Position numbers and translations under genes: made by a program. Under the pieces are notes generated by a model. That model was not told where the DNA came from. It was given only the letters and a program-made list of their open reading frames with translations, and did not search any database. Of a stretch of 10,342 nt of DNA, positions 3,192 to 9,806 are shown in pieces. Origin of the DNA: Deltaproteobacteria bacterium (GTDB lineage Bacteria > JAUYMQ01); contig JAUYMQ010000070.1 of assembly GCA_030698575.1 (NCBI GenBank), positions 1-10,342 on the forward strand. The letters run 5' to 3'. The stretch's first letter is position 1, and every line of letters begins with the position of its first letter.

Positions 3192-3251
3192 GATCGCTCA
3201 GCCTCCCTCGGGAAATACAACGTAGAAGAGGCAGTCGCTGAGCGCGATCTC
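3190..3251. repeat. Long-loop inverted repeat spanning the convergent gene ends
   Basis: GAGATCGCTCAGC (3190-3202) and GCTGAGCGCGATCTC (3237-3251) pair along 13 bp with a 2-nt bulge and a 34-nt loop. The left arm covers both stop codons of the convergent genes; the right arm lies in the last codons of the aspartoacylase-family gene. There is no uridine tract, so it is not a canonical terminator. It could slow polymerase or protect 3' ends in this very tight junction; that is inference. Confidence 0.55.
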
Positions 3252-4217
3252 GGGGTCGGTGGTCATCATGATCGGAATGATGTCGCGCCGGGTCTCGAGG
3301 ATTTCCCCGCGGGCAGCGAACAGATCCCGCGAAACATCCTGGCCTTCGACTCCCACGGCCCAGAGCGGCCAGGCGCCGCCCGAGAGCCAGCCGACAACCG
3401 CGCCGCGCGGCATGGGTTTGAAGTTCTCGCCGTCGATGTCGCTGCGGATCGTGATGTCCGCGCCCGGCACCGGGGCGTCGCCGAACGCCATCCGCGCGCC
3501 GGTCCGGATGTTCACCCGGATCGGCCTTCCAACCACCGTGATCCCCGACACGGCCTCCCGTATCGGCTCCAGATCCCCGGCGCCCAGGTAGCGCTCCAGC
3601 CCCGCCTTCGCAAGCGCGTCGGAAGCTGCTTCCCCCGCCATGCCGCACTCGATCACGACACTTGGAAATTCGTGCTCGGTCGCCTCAACGAGCGTGCCGA
3701 GACGCAGATCGCTGTGAACGTAGGCGCTTGCGAAGAGGCTCACGAGGTGAAGCTGGGGATCGGCAACGATCGTCCCGACGCCGTAGGGAGGCGTGTGCCC
3801 GGTGGTGTTGTGCACGTCGACGAGCGCCTCGGGCGCGGCGCCCCGCAGCTGATCAAGAACCTGGCCCGCGAGCGCGCGTTCCGCCTGCTCAAAGGGGGGC
3901 GCGAAGCAGCGGTTGAGATCGGGATGATCGGGCAGCGCGCGTCGGGAGAAAACAGGGGGCGAGAGGGCCGCTTCCACGGAACCGATGAAGGCCACCAGAT
4001 CGACGGCGGGCACGAACCCCTCCCGCAACATCCTGTGCAGGGCACGAAGCCCCGACGGCTCGTTGCCATGAAGCAGCGTGGAGACGGCCCGGGTCCGCGC
4101 GCCATCCCGGCCGGGAACCCGCAGAATCGCGGGTCCGCCCAGCCAGCGGAGGAAATCCTCGGGCGTGTGGGGAATACGGTCCCGATCATCGATCTCGATT
4201 GCGCGAAGGCGGCTCAC
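3198..4217 (-). CDS. Aspartoacylase / succinylglutamate desuccinylase family zinc amidohydrolase
   Basis: This 339-residue cytosolic enzyme belongs to the carboxypeptidase-A-like AspA/AstE group, which hydrolyses N-acyl amino acids or small amides. The zinc ligands are visible: H50 and E53 in LLHGNEPSG, and H136 in LVDVHNTTGH. DLNRCF (100-105) supplies the substrate-binding Asn-Arg pair, and E190 in VVIECG is the expected general base. The GTG start at 4215-4217 is chosen because it overlaps the stop of the upstream ligase as GTGA; an ATG at 4358 would intrude 140 nt into that gene, and the extra residues look like out-of-frame sequence. It is translationally coupled to the GCS2-like ligase, suggesting linked reactions. 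Substrate is unknown; succinylglutamate is unlikely as no other arginine-succinyltransferase pathway genes are present. Confidence 0.88.
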   Translation of the reverse strand: MSRLRAIEIDDRDRIPHTPEDFLRWLGGPAILRVPGRDGARTRAVSTLLHGNEPSGLRALHRMLREGFVPAVDLVAFIGSVEAALSPPVFSRRALPDHPDLNRCFAPPFEQAERALAGQVLDQLRGAAPEALVDVHNTTGHTPPYGVGTIVADPQLHLVSLFASAYVHSDLRLGTLVEATEHEFPSVVIECGMAGEAASDALAKAGLERYLGAGDLEPIREAVSGITVVGRPIRVNIRTGARMAFGDAPVPGADITIRSDIDGENFKPMPRGAVVGWLSGGAWPLWAVGVEGQDVSRDLFAARGEILETRRDIIPIMMTTDPEIALSDCLFYVVFPEGG

Positions 4218-5716
4218 GGCTTGCCCTGTCCCTCCAGTGGCCAGCGGTGCACCGGCTCGTCTTTGTCTGATAGCGCCAGATAACGCTCGAACATCGCCCG
4301 CAAGGCCTCCTCGCGCGGCATCGACGCTTCGAGATCTTCCAGCATGGCTCGCTGCCATACGGCGGCGGTCTGCCCCGACAGGCTGCGCGCCTCAATCATG
4401 CCGAGCAAGGGATCCGACTCTGCGGGTGCGATCCCGGCCGCCAGAAGCCCTTCCCGGGCAAGAGGCAGGAGCCGGTGGACGAGTTCCCGCGCCGTAAGCA
4501 GATCGACGCCGCGTCCAGTGGCGCGTGGCCAGGCAAGCTCGGCGTCGAGCCCGGACTTGGCGGCGCGATAGAAGTTCCGATGCGCCATCGCAAAGGGGTA
4601 CACGCTGATCCACTCGGGCATGCGAGGCGCAAGCCCATGCGTGAGCCCGATCAGAAAGACAGCGTTCGCCAGCATGTCGGTGATCGTGGGCCCGGAGGGA
4701 AGCACCCGTAACTCGATCCGCAGGTGTCCGCCGTCAACCGGATCGTAGATCGCGCGGTTCCAGCGCCAGACGGTTCCCTGGTGCAGCCGCAACTCGGCGA
4801 GGCCGGGTGTTCCGCCAGACCGGAGACAGGCCGCCGGATTCTCGTCGCTCATGATCGGAAGCAACGGCTCGTGCAGGATGACGCTCTCCGCAAAGAGCTC
4901 CAGCGCATCGCGGCGCACCCAGCCGTTGCCGAAGGATACCCGCGCGATGCCCTGCCGCCGCCCGCCGGCTTCGGGACGTTCGTCGATGGCCTGCTTGAAG
5001 AGCGCTACCCGCGTCTCGCGCCACAGGCGGCGGCCCAGGAAGGTCGGCGAGTTGCCTGCCACGGAGAGCACCGGCGCGGTGGCCACCTGGGCCGCGTTGT
5101 AGAGGCCGGCGAACTCGGCAGGGTCGACCCGGAGATGAACCTGGAAGCTCGTCCCCGCCCCCTCGAAGGTCACGTCGTCGCAGCTTACCTGCAGAACATC
5201 GTCGCCGTGGATGTCCATCTCGAAGGGGGCGCCACCGCGCAGGCGCTGCAGCCCCGCCGAGAGCGCGCGGTAGCGCGGCACGTCGGACATGGCGCCCCTC
5301 TGGAGATCTTCCGGGCGAAGCGTGGGCAGGATTCCGATAGTGGCGATCCGCCCGCCGTGACGCCCCACCGCGCGGCGGGCTTCCGCCAGCGCCGAACGGA
5401 TCTCCTGCCCCAGGGCCGTGAAGGGACTTCCGGCCAGCGGCGAGGGGGTCAGGTTGCATTCGAGGTTGAAACGATTCAGCTCGGTCGTGAAGCGGGGATC
5501 GGTCATCTCGGCCAGCACGGCCTGATTGAGGGAAAGCGGTCGCCCCGTCTCGTCGACCAGGAAGAACTCGAGCTCCGCGCCGAGCGTCGCCGGACCCTTG
5601 CCGAAACCGGGACGCCGCAGAAGCTCCCGCAGCGTTGCCAGGCAGACCGACAAGCGCTCCGAGAAACGCTTGAACTCCTCCTCGTCGAACCGTTCCCGCT
5701 CGATGGACGTCCCCAT
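4214..5716 (-). CDS. Glutamate-cysteine ligase family protein (GCS2 type)
   Basis: This 500-residue cytosolic protein belongs to the GCS2 fold, ATP-dependent ligases that join the gamma-carboxyl of glutamate to an amine, giving gamma-glutamylcysteine or a related compound. Visible motifs are LGAELEFFLVD (45-55) with metal-binding glutamates, LECNLTP (85-91), FQVHLRVDP (191-199), GNSPTF (221-226), LWRETR (231-236) and HLRIELRVLPSGPT (331-344). The ATG at 5714-5716 follows an AAGGAGG ribosome site at 8-nt spacing; longer readings run into the divergent gene. It is the first gene of a leftward pair, overlapping the zinc amidohydrolase by GTGA. No glutathione synthetase, EgtB or EgtD gene is in view, so it may be gamma-glutamylcysteine synthetase or a relative making another gamma-glutamyl amide. 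Confidence 0.88.
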   Translation of the reverse strand: MGTSIERERFDEEEFKRFSERLSVCLATLRELLRRPGFGKGPATLGAELEFFLVDETGRPLSLNQAVLAEMTDPRFTTELNRFNLECNLTPSPLAGSPFTALGQEIRSALAEARRAVGRHGGRIATIGILPTLRPEDLQRGAMSDVPRYRALSAGLQRLRGGAPFEMDIHGDDVLQVSCDDVTFEGAGTSFQVHLRVDPAEFAGLYNAAQVATAPVLSVAGNSPTFLGRRLWRETRVALFKQAIDERPEAGGRRQGIARVSFGNGWVRRDALELFAESVILHEPLLPIMSDENPAACLRSGGTPGLAELRLHQGTVWRWNRAIYDPVDGGHLRIELRVLPSGPTITDMLANAVFLIGLTHGLAPRMPEWISVYPFAMAHRNFYRAAKSGLDAELAWPRATGRGVDLLTARELVHRLLPLAREGLLAAGIAPAESDPLLGMIEARSLSGQTAAVWQRAMLEDLEASMPREEALRAMFERYLALSDKDEPVHRWPLEGQGKP

Positions 5717-5766
5717 GGGGGATCGCCTCCTTCTTTCCAGGGCCCGGGGGACCCGGACCCCGCGCA

Positions 5767-5795
5767 ATTGTAGCCGAACCCGGCCCAAGCCCCAG
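5767..5795 (-). promoter_or_regulatory. Candidate promoter for the GCS2-like / amidohydrolase unit
   Basis: On the minus strand a good -10 hexamer, TACAAT, reads 5772-5767. The sequence 17 bp upstream is CTGGGG (5795-5790), a poor -35. A start near 5760 would give a leader of about 45 nt containing the AAGGAGG ribosome site. The -10 is the best on this strand in the intergenic region, but the weak -35 keeps confidence low. Confidence 0.35.
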
Positions 5796-5875
5796 CCGCA
5801 TCGCGTGGACGATGCAAGGACGCCGGCCGCGGTTCGCGCGAGCGAGGCCCATGAATATTTTGCACCGCACGCCTG

Positions 5876-5905
5876 TGGATACAAAGCGGCGGAAGATGCT
5901 ATCGT
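5876..5905 (+). promoter_or_regulatory. Candidate promoter for the universal stress protein gene
   Basis: TATCGT (5900-5905) is preceded by TGC, an extended -10 arrangement, with TGGATA (5876-5881) 18 bp upstream as a weak -35. The leader would be about 36 nt and includes the GGGAGG ribosome site. The 231-bp region between the two divergent genes shows no other clear element and no repeat. Confidence 0.3.
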
Positions 5906-5947
5906 GAACCGCTCTCCGACCGGAAACATCCACATGGGAGGCAACTG

Positions 5948-6865
5948 ATGAAGCGTGTCCGGCGAATCCTGGTTCCAGTCGACTTTTCGAAAACCAGCGC
6001 GGCCGCCGTTCGAACCGCCGTTCGCATCGCCTCCCGCTCGAAGGCCCGCGTGAGCCTGCTTCACGTCTACCCCTTCCCGCGCGGAAGCTTCTCGGCTTAC
6101 CGGACCATGCGCGAGATCGAAGCCGACGCGAAGGGGGAAAAGGGGGCCTGGACCTCAAAGTCGAAACGGACGCTCAGCGCCTGGGTCACGCGCTATCAGA
6201 AGCCGGGCGTCACTCTCCGCAAGCTGTTCGCCATCGGGCGGCCAGCCGAGGAGATCAAGACCGTCGCGGTGCAGATCAAGGCCGATCTTATCGTGATCGG
6301 AACCCGGGGGCTGGGCGGCCTCAAGGGCGCGATCATCGGGAGCACGGCGGCTGAAGCCATCCGCCTCACGGACGCGCCGGTTCTCACGGTGCACGAGGGG
6401 CGCGGCGCAACGGGAGAGGCGAGCCGTGTGGTCGTGGGGGACGATTTCGGGGACGGGGGCGACGCCGCCATCGCCGCTGCCGTCGCCTTCGTGGATCCGA
6501 AGAAGGCGCGGGTCCTCCTGCTGCACGTGGTCGATCCGGCGCCGCTGCTCTACGCCGGCGCAGCCGAGTGGGGGTGGATCGCCGCGACGGACACCCTGGC
6601 TGAAGATGAAAAGCTCTCGAAGAACAAGATCGAAACGCGCGCCGGAAAGCTGCGCCGCAAGGGCTTCAAGGTGGAGTGTCGCGTGGTGACCGGCCCGCCG
6701 GCGCAGACCATCACGCGGGTCGCGAAGGGCTGGAAGGCCCAGCTCCTCATCGTCGCCACCCACGGGCGCCGCGGCGTCTCACGCGTCCTGATTGGAAACA
6801 CAGCCGACCAGCTGCTCCGCAGCGTACGCACCCCGATCCTCACCGTGCGGCCCGAGCGGAAGTGA
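5948..6865 (+). CDS. Tandem universal stress protein (two UspA domains)
   Basis: This 305-residue cytosolic protein carries two UspA domains, near residues 3-150 and 160-302. Domain 1 has RILVPVDFS with D12, and a complete nucleotide-binding signature G-x2-G-x9-G-S/T: G118, G121, G131, S132. Domain 2 keeps the fold (VVVGDDF, LLHVVDP, LLIVATHG) but the signature is altered, with A270 for the first Gly and N284 for Ser, so it may bind ATP poorly. Tandem Usps usually act in stress survival and energy sensing, often as regulators of a partner protein. GGGAGG precedes the ATG by about 6 nt. It is divergent from the ligase/amidohydrolase pair and is probably a single-gene unit. A lysine-rich insert (about 60-75) extends domain 1. 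The molecular partner is unknown. Confidence 0.92.
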   Translation: MKRVRRILVPVDFSKTSAAAVRTAVRIASRSKARVSLLHVYPFPRGSFSAYRTMREIEADAKGEKGAWTSKSKRTLSAWVTRYQKPGVTLRKLFAIGRPAEEIKTVAVQIKADLIVIGTRGLGGLKGAIIGSTAAEAIRLTDAPVLTVHEGRGATGEASRVVVGDDFGDGGDAAIAAAVAFVDPKKARVLLLHVVDPAPLLYAGAAEWGWIAATDTLAEDEKLSKNKIETRAGKLRRKGFKVECRVVTGPPAQTITRVAKGWKAQLLIVATHGRRGVSRVLIGNTADQLLRSVRTPILTVRPERK

Positions 6866-6989: not shown

Positions 6990-7060
6990 CACGGGGCGGA
7001 CAGTCCGCGCCGCCAATCCGTTCTCCTCCTACACGACCTGCGATCGAGGTGAAGCGTCCC

Positions 7061-7678
7061 ATGCGCTCCCTGCGATTCTGGATCGCCGCGACCGTCTTCG
7101 CGCTGGCCGCCGGCGCCGTGATCGGTTTCTGGCCGGAGGATGCGAAGCGTCCACTGCCGGCGGCGCCTGTGCCCGGGCTGGAGCCCCTCGCCGAACCTGC
7201 CCCCGCGCCTGCCGGGACCGTTGCTCCTCCGCCGGCGCCCCGTGTTGCTATCCCGCCCCCGGCGCCGCCTCCCGCCGGCGCAACGTCACCCGATGAACCG
7301 GCGGCCCCGGATCGGGCTCTGGTTCGCGAGGCGCTCCAGGAGGCTTTCGCGGAGAAGCTGCCTGATCGCCGACTCTCGGAGGAGGAGTTCGACAAACTGG
7401 CCGACGCCGTCCTCCGGATGCGCGCAGCGCGCGAGAGGATGGCGGCGCTTTCCCTCACCCGCGAAAACGCCGCGGAGCTGGCGCAGCTTCGCGAAGATCT
7501 CAACACCGCCGTCACCGATTTCGAGTACGTCTCGGAACTGACGCCGAGCGCCTTCTCCGCGCTTGTCGAGCCCGACCTGCAACCGATTCGCAAGTCGCCG
7601 GATGCCGGTGTCGATTCCAACAAGGATAAAGACGAGGATGTCACCTTTGAATATCTTCACGACACGCCGCCCCAGTAG
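7061..7678 (+). CDS. Membrane-anchored proline/alanine-rich protein of unknown function
   Basis: I do not recognise this 205-residue protein. Residues 4-24 (LRFWIAATVFALAAGAVIGFW) form a single N-terminal membrane anchor or uncleaved signal. A Pro/Ala-rich stretch follows (about 30-85), probably a spacer crossing periplasm or wall. Next is a charged, helix-rich part (about 90-160) with heptad-like Ala/Leu/Glu spacing, and the tail is acidic and Lys-rich. The ATG at 7061 is preferred over GTG at 7049 because GAGGTGA (7046-7052) is the ribosome site for it. The next gene starts 41 nt before its stop, implying translational coupling with the DsbA-like lipoprotein, so both probably act in the envelope. 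The C-terminal half is not low complexity, which argues for a real protein; no homologue comes to mind. Confidence 0.72.
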   Translation: MRSLRFWIAATVFALAAGAVIGFWPEDAKRPLPAAPVPGLEPLAEPAPAPAGTVAPPPAPRVAIPPPAPPPAGATSPDEPAAPDRALVREALQEAFAEKLPDRRLSEEEFDKLADAVLRMRAARERMAALSLTRENAAELAQLREDLNTAVTDFEYVSELTPSAFSALVEPDLQPIRKSPDAGVDSNKDKDEDVTFEYLHDTPPQ

Positions 7679-8753
7679 CATTCCCGCCCTTCTCTGTATT
7701 CTTCTGCTGGCCTGCTCTCCCGATCCTTCGGGCACGGGAGAAGTGGCGGAAAACCGCGGAGAACCGATCGCCCGGCTCGGAGATCAGATCATCTACCGCG
7801 ACGAGGTTGCGCCCGCCGTCGCCTATCAGGTCTACAGGCGAGAGGTCGACATCTACTCGCTTCTCAAGGGAGAAACGGAAGCGCTGATAAGCAACCGTGT
7901 GCTGGCCATGGAGGCGGAGCGCCGCAAGATCGCGCTGGAGGATCTCCTGCGCGTGGAGATCGACGAGAAGGTCGAGCCCGCCGGCGAGGCCGACGTGGAC
8001 GCCTATCTCGCCGGGCACCCGCAGGAGGCGGGGAGCGGAAAGGAGACGAGGGCGCGGATTCGATACTTCCTCTCCGAAACCCGGCGGGAAGAGCGGCGGC
8101 TCGCGCTCCAGGAGGATCTGCGCGCCAGGGCGGGTTTCGAATTCCTGCTGGAACCGCCCCTCGCGATCCGCACTCGCCTCGATGTCGCTGACGCACCTGT
8201 GCGCGGGCCGGCGGAAGCACCGATCACGCTGGTGCATTTCGCGACTTTCAGCTCTCCCCTCTCCGTGCGATCCGCGGGCTACCTCCGGCGCCTCGTCGAG
8301 GAGTTCCCCGGCAAGATCCGCTGGGTCCACCGCCATTTCCTGAACCCCCACGACGAGACAGGGCTGCTAGCGGCCGAGTTCGCGGTGGCGGCGCAGGACC
8401 AGGAAGTTTTCTGGGAGGCTCACGACGCGCTCTTCGACCTCGAGGGAAATCTCGACGAGAGGAAGATGCTGGGCGTCGCTCACAAGATCGGCGTGGATGA
8501 CGACACGATGCGTCAGGTCGGGATCGACGAGAAGTACCTGAAGGCGGTCAAGCGGGACATCGACGCCGGCGTCAAAGCGGGCGTCCGGAGCGAGCCCGTG
8601 GTCTACGTGAACGGCCGGTACTTCAGCAGCACCTTCCCCTACGAGCGGCTCCGCCAGATGGTCGCCGAGGAGCTGGGCGAGGCGCCCCCCTCCGTCGAGC
8701 CGGACGATCCCCTGGCCGGGCCCCTCCCGGCCCCATCACGGGGCGGGGGATAA
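7638..8753 (+). CDS. Lipoprotein with SurA-N-like region and cysteine-less DsbA-like domain
   Basis: This 371-residue protein begins with a lipoprotein signal: hydrophobic 15-25 and lipobox LLAC at C26, so it is likely membrane-tethered in the periplasm. Residues about 40-120 resemble SurA/PpiC-type N-terminal helices (ARLGDQIIYRDEV, then charged helices). Residues about 188-340 resemble DsbA/Thioredoxin_4: GPAEAPITLVHF, EEFPGKIRWVHRHF, AAEFAVAAQDQEVFWEAHDALF and the cis-Pro region GVRSEPVVYVNGR (P320). Where the family has CPYC, this protein has SPLS (S206, S209), so it cannot do thiol-disulfide exchange by the usual route and may be a chaperone or scaffold. The ATG at 7638 is chosen because earlier in-frame ATGs lie deep in the preceding gene and would bury the lipobox. 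The Gly/Pro-rich tail is likely disordered. Confidence 0.85.
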   Translation: MSPLNIFTTRRPSSIPALLCILLLACSPDPSGTGEVAENRGEPIARLGDQIIYRDEVAPAVAYQVYRREVDIYSLLKGETEALISNRVLAMEAERRKIALEDLLRVEIDEKVEPAGEADVDAYLAGHPQEAGSGKETRARIRYFLSETRREERRLALQEDLRARAGFEFLLEPPLAIRTRLDVADAPVRGPAEAPITLVHFATFSSPLSVRSAGYLRRLVEEFPGKIRWVHRHFLNPHDETGLLAAEFAVAAQDQEVFWEAHDALFDLEGNLDERKMLGVAHKIGVDDDTMRQVGIDEKYLKAVKRDIDAGVKAGVRSEPVVYVNGRYFSSTFPYERLRQMVAEELGEAPPSVEPDDPLAGPLPAPSRGGG

Positions 8754-8779: not shown

Positions 8780-8809
8780 TTGACCTCACTCTCGAATAGG
8801 CCCTAACAT
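8780..8809 (+). promoter_or_regulatory. Sigma70-like promoter for the SGNH hydrolase gene
   Basis: TTGACC (8780-8785), inside the decamer CCGCTTGACC, is followed after 18 bp by TAACAT (8804-8809), a reasonable -10. The predicted start near 8816 leaves a leader of about 82 nt containing the GTTCA repeats and a GGGGAGG ribosome site. Confidence 0.5.
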
Positions 8810-8897: not shown

Positions 8898-9806
8898 ATG
8901 CGAAAATCGATGCTTGCCATCCTCATCGCACTGGGGATTGCCGGCCTTGTGGTTCCCGGAGGCGTGTTCGCGAAGGACCCGCGGCTCTCACCGAAGCGGC
9001 TCTCCAGCACGGGCGACAGCATTACCGAGGCCATCAACGCCGAGGAGTTCAACCCGTTCATCTTTATCACCCCGAACCACTGGGCCAGCTGGGCGAACGG
9101 ATACTATGGCTTCTGGGAGTGGCTCTTCGGCCGCACGAACGTGAAGAGCCACAACCAGCGGATCAGCAGCAACTTCGGCTCGTCGGGGCGCAAGAATTTC
9201 ATGCAGGCGCTCAGCGGGGCCGATAGCTTCGATCTGCCGGGACAGACGGCGCAGTCGGTTTCGAACGCCGCCACCTACGTGACCCACTTCATGGGCCACA
9301 ACGACGTCTGCCAGGGCTCCTTCGCCGATATTCCGAGCGATGCGCAGTTCGAGGCGAACGTGCGGGCCGGGCTCAACAACATGAAGAACGGACTGCCCAA
9401 CGGCGCGACGGTCTACGTGCAGGCCATCGTCGATATCTACAAGCTGTGGCAGCTCGGTGACCAGCTGACCTCCTTCGGCATCATCGATTGCCGGGTCATC
9501 TGGGCGGCGAGCCTCTTCAACATCTTCCCCTGCGCCACGATGCTGAGCCCGCTGAACAGCGAAGCGGACCGGCAGTACACGAGGAGCCGCAACGTTGCGT
9601 TCAACACCATCCTTCAGAACCTGGTGAACGAATTCAACGCGAACGACACGCACCACTACTACCAGTACACCACCGTGACGTTCGACACGACGTTCACCGC
9701 CGACCAGGTCTCTCCCTTCGACTGCTTCCACCCGTCGGCCAAGGGACAGAAAGACCTCTCGGCCTACACCTGGGCGGACGGTCCCTTCAAGGCTTACACC
9801 AAGTAA
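8898..9806 (+). CDS. Secreted SGNH/GDSL-family hydrolase
   Basis: This 302-residue protein has a cleavable signal peptide (MRKSMLAILIALGIAGLVVP, probable cleavage after A25 in VFA). Catalytic blocks of the SGNH family are present in order: S41 in STGDSITEA, a block II glycine near 94-97 or G115, G133-x-N135-D in MGHND, and D275-x-x-H278 in FDCFHPSAKGQ. It is therefore a serine esterase/lipase-type enzyme exported to the periplasm or outside; possible substrates are phospholipids, acylated polysaccharides or ester lipids. Four cysteines (138, 198, 212, 276) are left in the mature protein, and C276 lies between the catalytic Asp and His, so disulfides near the active site are likely. GGGGAGG precedes the ATG by about 7 nt. 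It appears to be a single-gene unit ended by a strong terminator. Confidence 0.9.
   Translation: MRKSMLAILIALGIAGLVVPGGVFAKDPRLSPKRLSSTGDSITEAINAEEFNPFIFITPNHWASWANGYYGFWEWLFGRTNVKSHNQRISSNFGSSGRKNFMQALSGADSFDLPGQTAQSVSNAATYVTHFMGHNDVCQGSFADIPSDAQFEANVRAGLNNMKNGLPNGATVYVQAIVDIYKLWQLGDQLTSFGIIDCRVIWAASLFNIFPCATMLSPLNSEADRQYTRSRNVAFNTILQNLVNEFNANDTHHYYQYTTVTFDTTFTADQVSPFDCFHPSAKGQKDLSAYTWADGPFKAYTK

Follow-up and report, generated by a model that had tools for sequence, protein, structure and literature searches.

Among the described systems, the periplasmic oxidoreductases of the DsbA, BdbD and ScsC types are alike in fold, sequence family, cis-proline and export signal to the protein considered here, a SurA_N-like/DsbA-like fusion that we call DsbS, which differs from them by the absence of CxxC, by a deviant cis-Pro loop and by its added SurA_N-like N-terminal domain. 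In DsbA enzymes, the cis-Pro loop follows the consensus X-[GAST]-[VT]-P (PMC13269488). ERp29 of the eukaryotic ER is a PDI/thioredoxin-fold protein without CxxC that serves as a chaperone or escort of secretory clients (PMC7506106); it belongs to another compartment and lineage, has no SurA_N-like domain and attends to a broad client set, and DsbS is likened to it in mode only. The thioredoxin (Trx) domain of E. coli CnoX has an SXXC motif and does not work as an oxidoreductase, representing a lineage-specific loss of a redox cysteine with persistence of the chaperone function, and Cys-bearing relatives occur elsewhere (PMC6282202). CnoX joins its Trx domain to TPR domains, works with cytoplasmic chaperones and keeps the second reactive cysteine, whereas in DsbS, an exported member of the DsbA family, both cysteines are gone. 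By analogy, DsbS is most likely comparable to ERp29 or CnoX in mode, yet represents a distinct, DsbA-family lineage, to which neither of the two belongs. Chaperoning by DsbA-type proteins is hard to test apart from disulfide exchange because both activities share one surface, and among open-licence papers we have found none on SurA_N-DsbA fusions and none on periplasmic cysteine-lacking DsbA chaperones.

The dsbS gene (7638..8753, + strand, an ORF of 371 aa) is located in a 10,342-nucleotide stretch of DNA, hereafter the window, and its 5' end shares 41 bp with the 3' end of the preceding gene, p209. The sequence-only reading of this DNA had placed a serine-substituted motif at the active site of a DsbA-like lipoprotein. 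Indeed, the codons TCT CCC CTC TCC (8253..8264, + strand), in frame with the ORF, encode S206-P-L-S209, and these residues occupy the CxxC position by sequence, family alignment and model; each change from cysteine takes one base (TCT/TGT, TCC/TGC), as had been pointed out. Both motif columns contain cysteine in every other aligned family member, bar three close orthologues. Besides C20 of the signal peptide, the ORF encodes a single cysteine, C26 of the putative lipobox LLLAC (7713..7715, + strand); the exported domains have none, and C26 is thus the sole cysteine of the mature protein. With the catalytic cysteines gone and no mature cysteine outside the lipobox, thiol-disulfide exchange by the domain is excluded; judged from its sequence, the Trx domain is thus ruled out as a thiol oxidoreductase, in agreement with the earlier suggestion. 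The proposed lipid anchor fared less uniformly: the lipobox, LLLAC26-S, was recognised by inspection in the window DsbS and is missing from the orthologues, so that a tether is not a trait of the family.

Two domains are recognised in DsbS, an N-terminal SurA_N-like domain (residues 43-170; 7764..8147, + strand) and a DsbA/thioredoxin-fold domain (residues 177-348; 8166..8681, + strand). The latter is matched above the Pfam cut-offs by Thioredoxin_4 (PF13462; residues 187-342, 8e-11, 42.8 bits vs. 23.2) and DSBA (PF01323; residues 245-340, 1.2e-8, 35.4 bits vs. 25.6), and cis-Pro320 is conserved. The nearest NCBIfam model, NF041057 (the Rcas_1661 family of thioredoxin-like (seleno)lipoproteins), scores 63.7 bits (E 1.8e-17) against a cut-off of 190, which excludes DsbS from that family, and the DsbS Trx domain has neither Sec nor Cys. 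An AlphaFold2 model built from eight orthologues (mean pLDDT 81, pTM 0.53) consists of two parts: residues 43-170 form a beta hairpin with helices, closing with a long helix (135-165), and residues 177-348 a thioredoxin fold that contains inserted helices. Comparison of this model with solved structures by Foldseek (3gyk, TMt 0.81) and by VIA-align (BdbD 3eu3, Z 22.5, 2.3 A over 172 aligned residues, with alignment rows covering mainly residues 175-351) confirmed, at the level of a predicted structure, the DsbA fold of the Trx part on which the earlier family assignment depended. For the N-terminal part, the assignment stood at the family level and not for the window protein itself: SurA_N_3 is matched in five of nine aligned N-domains, those of the orthologues and one own-genome paralogue (best 5.8e-6), and the window DsbS has no such Pfam match. 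The N-domain gives a weak PDB profile match (E 0.35) to 3rfw, a SurA-like protein, and the Pfam scan of DsbS returned no parvulin PPIase domain. In the model, S206 immediately precedes helix 207-222, and a serine at this position may merely cap that helix. The cis-Pro loop reads R-S-E-P and fails the DsbA consensus given above.

A search of genome contigs with the DsbS protein as a single-sequence query returned no relatives; four of the orthologous loci (L035, L036, L037 and L040) were found by a scan with an alignment of the more conserved GDSL hydrolase encoded next to it. The motif reads SRSS in Deltaproteobacteria OFTM245 (L036) and OFTM73 (L037) and SRAG in Myxococcota KLAP59 (L035), these three Cys-less orthologues coming from three Myxococcota MAGs; it reads CPRC in an uncultured bacterium (L040) and CEHC in L007, L033 and L034, three MAGs that share a phylum other than the window's. 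Maximum-likelihood analysis of 21 sequences unites the four Cys-less proteins in one clade (support 99/98; 91/93 with the motif columns removed), nested within a GDSL-linked subfamily (100/98) whose other members retain CEHC or CPRC, and one change of state is inferred. Had orthologues with CxxC made DsbS a lone mutant, as the sequence-only reading had allowed, the four Cys-bearing orthologues would have sufficed; the three that group with the window protein show otherwise, and on the sequences compared the loss is neither universal nor a lone mutation, being shared by one clade of four. Within this clade, identity amounts to 41–54% in the Trx domain and 39–52% in the N-domain; with the two so similar after the loss of cysteines, the DsbA domain appears to have been maintained, with no faster decay. 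In the clade, 44 positions of the Trx domain do not vary; they include S206, R211 (8268..8270, + strand; Arg in 4/4 Cys-less proteins, where Cys-bearing orthologues have Glu) and E319, which with cis-Pro320 occupies 8592..8597 (+ strand). Glu precedes the cis-proline in 4/4 Cys-less proteins, and Val or Ala does in the Cys-bearing orthologues; we have nevertheless dropped this Glu as a mark of the Cys-less form alone, given that L074, a distant CxxC relative (CKVC), likewise has it.

The best clue to the function of DsbS is its gene neighbourhood, a same-strand trio of p209, DsbS and a GDSL hydrolase in that order, which the sequence-only reading had overlooked. The first gene (7049..7678, + strand) encodes 209 aa with a predicted N-terminal membrane helix (7-21), a Pro/Ala-rich linker and a C-terminal helical bundle (89-173; AlphaFold2 pLDDT 93–98), and has counterparts in the same place in seven loci (L007, L033, L034, L035, L036, L037, L040). 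It matches nothing over the Pfam cut-offs and no PDB fold with E <= 0.001; its layout of membrane helix, Pro/Ala linker and helical domain brought lipase-specific foldases to mind, and relatedness to them, having no Pfam or PDB support, was set aside as an analogy only. The trio is retained in 8/8 close members, the hydrolase changing more slowly in them than p209 and DsbS do. Of GDSL relatives further away, ten were considered: L041, a Methylotetracoccus contig with the same three gene kinds in the order hydrolase, p209-like, DsbA-like, and nine from a Myxococcota-side search; a DsbA-like gene lies beside or near the hydrolase in seven of them (motifs CAPC, CKVC, CRPC, CHHC, CRVC, CRHC and CRLC), and the remaining three (L078, L079, L081) show no recognisable DsbA-like neighbour, with the four hydrolase cysteines still present. 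The close form of the hydrolase was found in only 3 of the 90 genomes searched from the class of L036, and no new lineage emerged from two other broad samples, of 386 and 396 genomes. Two of the distant DsbA-like proteins (L041:3337-4800 and L074:6435-8297) apparently carry two tandem SurA_N-like regions before the Trx domain.

The hydrolase (8898..9806, + strand) is an exported GDSL/SGNH enzyme (PF00657, 4.9e-12, 46.9 bits vs. a cut-off of 23.6) whose motifs GDS (S41), HND (N135) and DxxH (D275/H278) are invariant in nine aligned members. A consensus match to a sigma-70-like promoter (9/12; one found, 0.2 expected) precedes the gene at 8780..8809 (+ strand). Four cysteines (C138, C198, C212, C276) are invariant in 9/9 aligned hydrolases, whether the neighbour reads CEHC, CPRC, CAPC, SPLS, SRSS or SRAG, and presumably form disulfides; the idea that the hydrolase lost its cysteines together with its partner is rejected by the same alignment. 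The nearest solved relatives are acyloxyacyl hydrolases: a distant match to 5w7d (1.8e-8), spanning the GDSL part only, reflects the domain in common, and the NDVC regions of the two align. Based on this sequence kinship, a lipid or other ester is the likely substrate. A second hydrolase of the same family lies directly downstream of the first at L092 (G024:C88:24334-25161), making a tandem pair (62–63% identical to the window's).

Other DsbA-like proteins encoded in the window genome carry CPFC, CPYC and CETC motifs, the CETC protein adjoining a DsbB homologue (G000:C576:539-1048 and 1225-1596); thus, even without DsbS, the genome provides oxidants for the hydrolase. When membrane oxidants were searched for, VKOR turned up in genome G063 only and DsbB in the window genome and G064 only; the genomes being incomplete, no correlation between oxidant type and cysteine state can be drawn. 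The same genome encodes a second SurA_N-like/DsbA-like protein with an intact CPFC, 28% identical to DsbS over the full length (L086; G000:C621:4491-5480); this paralogue (L002/L086) falls outside in the tree. The window genome is the sole representative of its phylum among the genomes compared, with a contamination estimate of 4.6%. By tetranucleotide usage, another contig of its own genome is the nearer neighbour of the window (0.126), the three Cys-less Myxococcota loci lying further off (0.21–0.32), which speaks against a stray contig. Elsewhere in the window, a large ORF (4214-6064, - strand), by eye of the glutamate-cysteine ligase (GCS2) type, overlaps the 5' end of an AspA-like ORF (3198-4358).

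Taken with these observations, the explanation that we regard as probable is that DsbS assists the GDSL hydrolase as a folding or escort factor without redox activity. Its ancestor would have been a SurA_N-like/DsbA-like CxxC protein encoded between p209 and the secreted hydrolase; both active-site cysteines would have been lost once, in one lineage, by change to serine, with retention of the first serine, and the loop responsible for clamping the substrate cysteine would have been remodelled, with Glu before the cis-proline, on a retained scaffold. DsbS would then bind the unfolded or partly folded hydrolase after export, as a dedicated holdase or escort aiding its folding or delivery, possibly in cooperation with p209 at the inner membrane, and other enzymes of the DsbA type in the cell would form the disulfides of the hydrolase. 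The long maintenance of DsbS beside the same Cys-containing hydrolase, together with the SurA_N-like domain, favours such a redox-free role; we infer a chaperone activity of DsbS and, from the gene neighbourhood, its binding to the hydrolase and the participation of p209. Against this explanation stand the hydrolases at L078, L079 and L081, where the missing DsbA-like neighbour indicates that the enzyme does not always need one. The lack of a SurA_N match in the window N-domain, the Glu before the cis-proline of L074 and the small number of Cys-less sequences known at present, four, all from MAGs or draft assemblies, also count against it. A more specific proposal, which we advance tentatively and with more doubt than conviction, is that p209 and DsbS act on the hydrolase in the manner of a lipase-specific foldase, free of redox chemistry, client binding having been kept, redox activity dropped and the disulfides handed to other enzymes.

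Alternatively, DsbS could have no part in folding, its fold providing a protein-binding platform to retain the mature hydrolase (and p209) at the membrane. DsbA-like folds can serve as adaptors, as in YjbH, one of the proteins matched by structure (6gho_B, Z 16.0), p209 is predicted to be membrane-anchored and the window DsbS carries a lipobox; yet the YjbH match is no better than that of many DsbAs, the orthologues have no conserved lipid anchor and an ancestral role in folding is suggested by those orthologues that retain the cysteines within the same trio, so we consider such a platform unlikely. A redox protein on its way out might also be expected to show the drift seen at the second motif position (S, S, S, G) and the slower divergence of the hydrolase noted above, but four intact ORFs in one clade, 39–54% identical per domain, the 44 invariant Trx-domain positions with S206 and E319 among them, and a Trx domain that diverges no faster than the N-domain make a decaying relic distinctly improbable. 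The invariance of S206, at the nucleophile position, and of E319 beside it would also suit a serine-based reaction; with no catalytic triad in view, a helix N-cap at hand to explain S206 and four sequences as its entire basis, this new chemistry seems very far-fetched. As for a lone mutation or an assembly error in one MAG, one base suffices for each change from cysteine to serine and the genome is a draft of 653 contigs; however, the three Myxococcota orthologues are Cys-less at the same site with the same neighbours and are monophyletic with DsbS, and the recurrence of this state in three independent assemblies rules out a sequencing error. We have rejected both readings on this evidence and give them hardly any credence.

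Overall, the data add a redox-dead variant to the DsbA family, and the suggestion of a new class of envelope folding factor, made from the sequence alone, is plausible. An annotation by domain match as a DsbA family thiol oxidoreductase is wrong for the Cys-less clade. The orthologues provide a natural comparison, in which proteins with CEHC and proteins with SxxS or SxxG occur in the same trio, next to hydrolases with the same four cysteines. If the redox-free foldase reading is true, the client-binding role of DsbA proteins would be separable from their redox chemistry.
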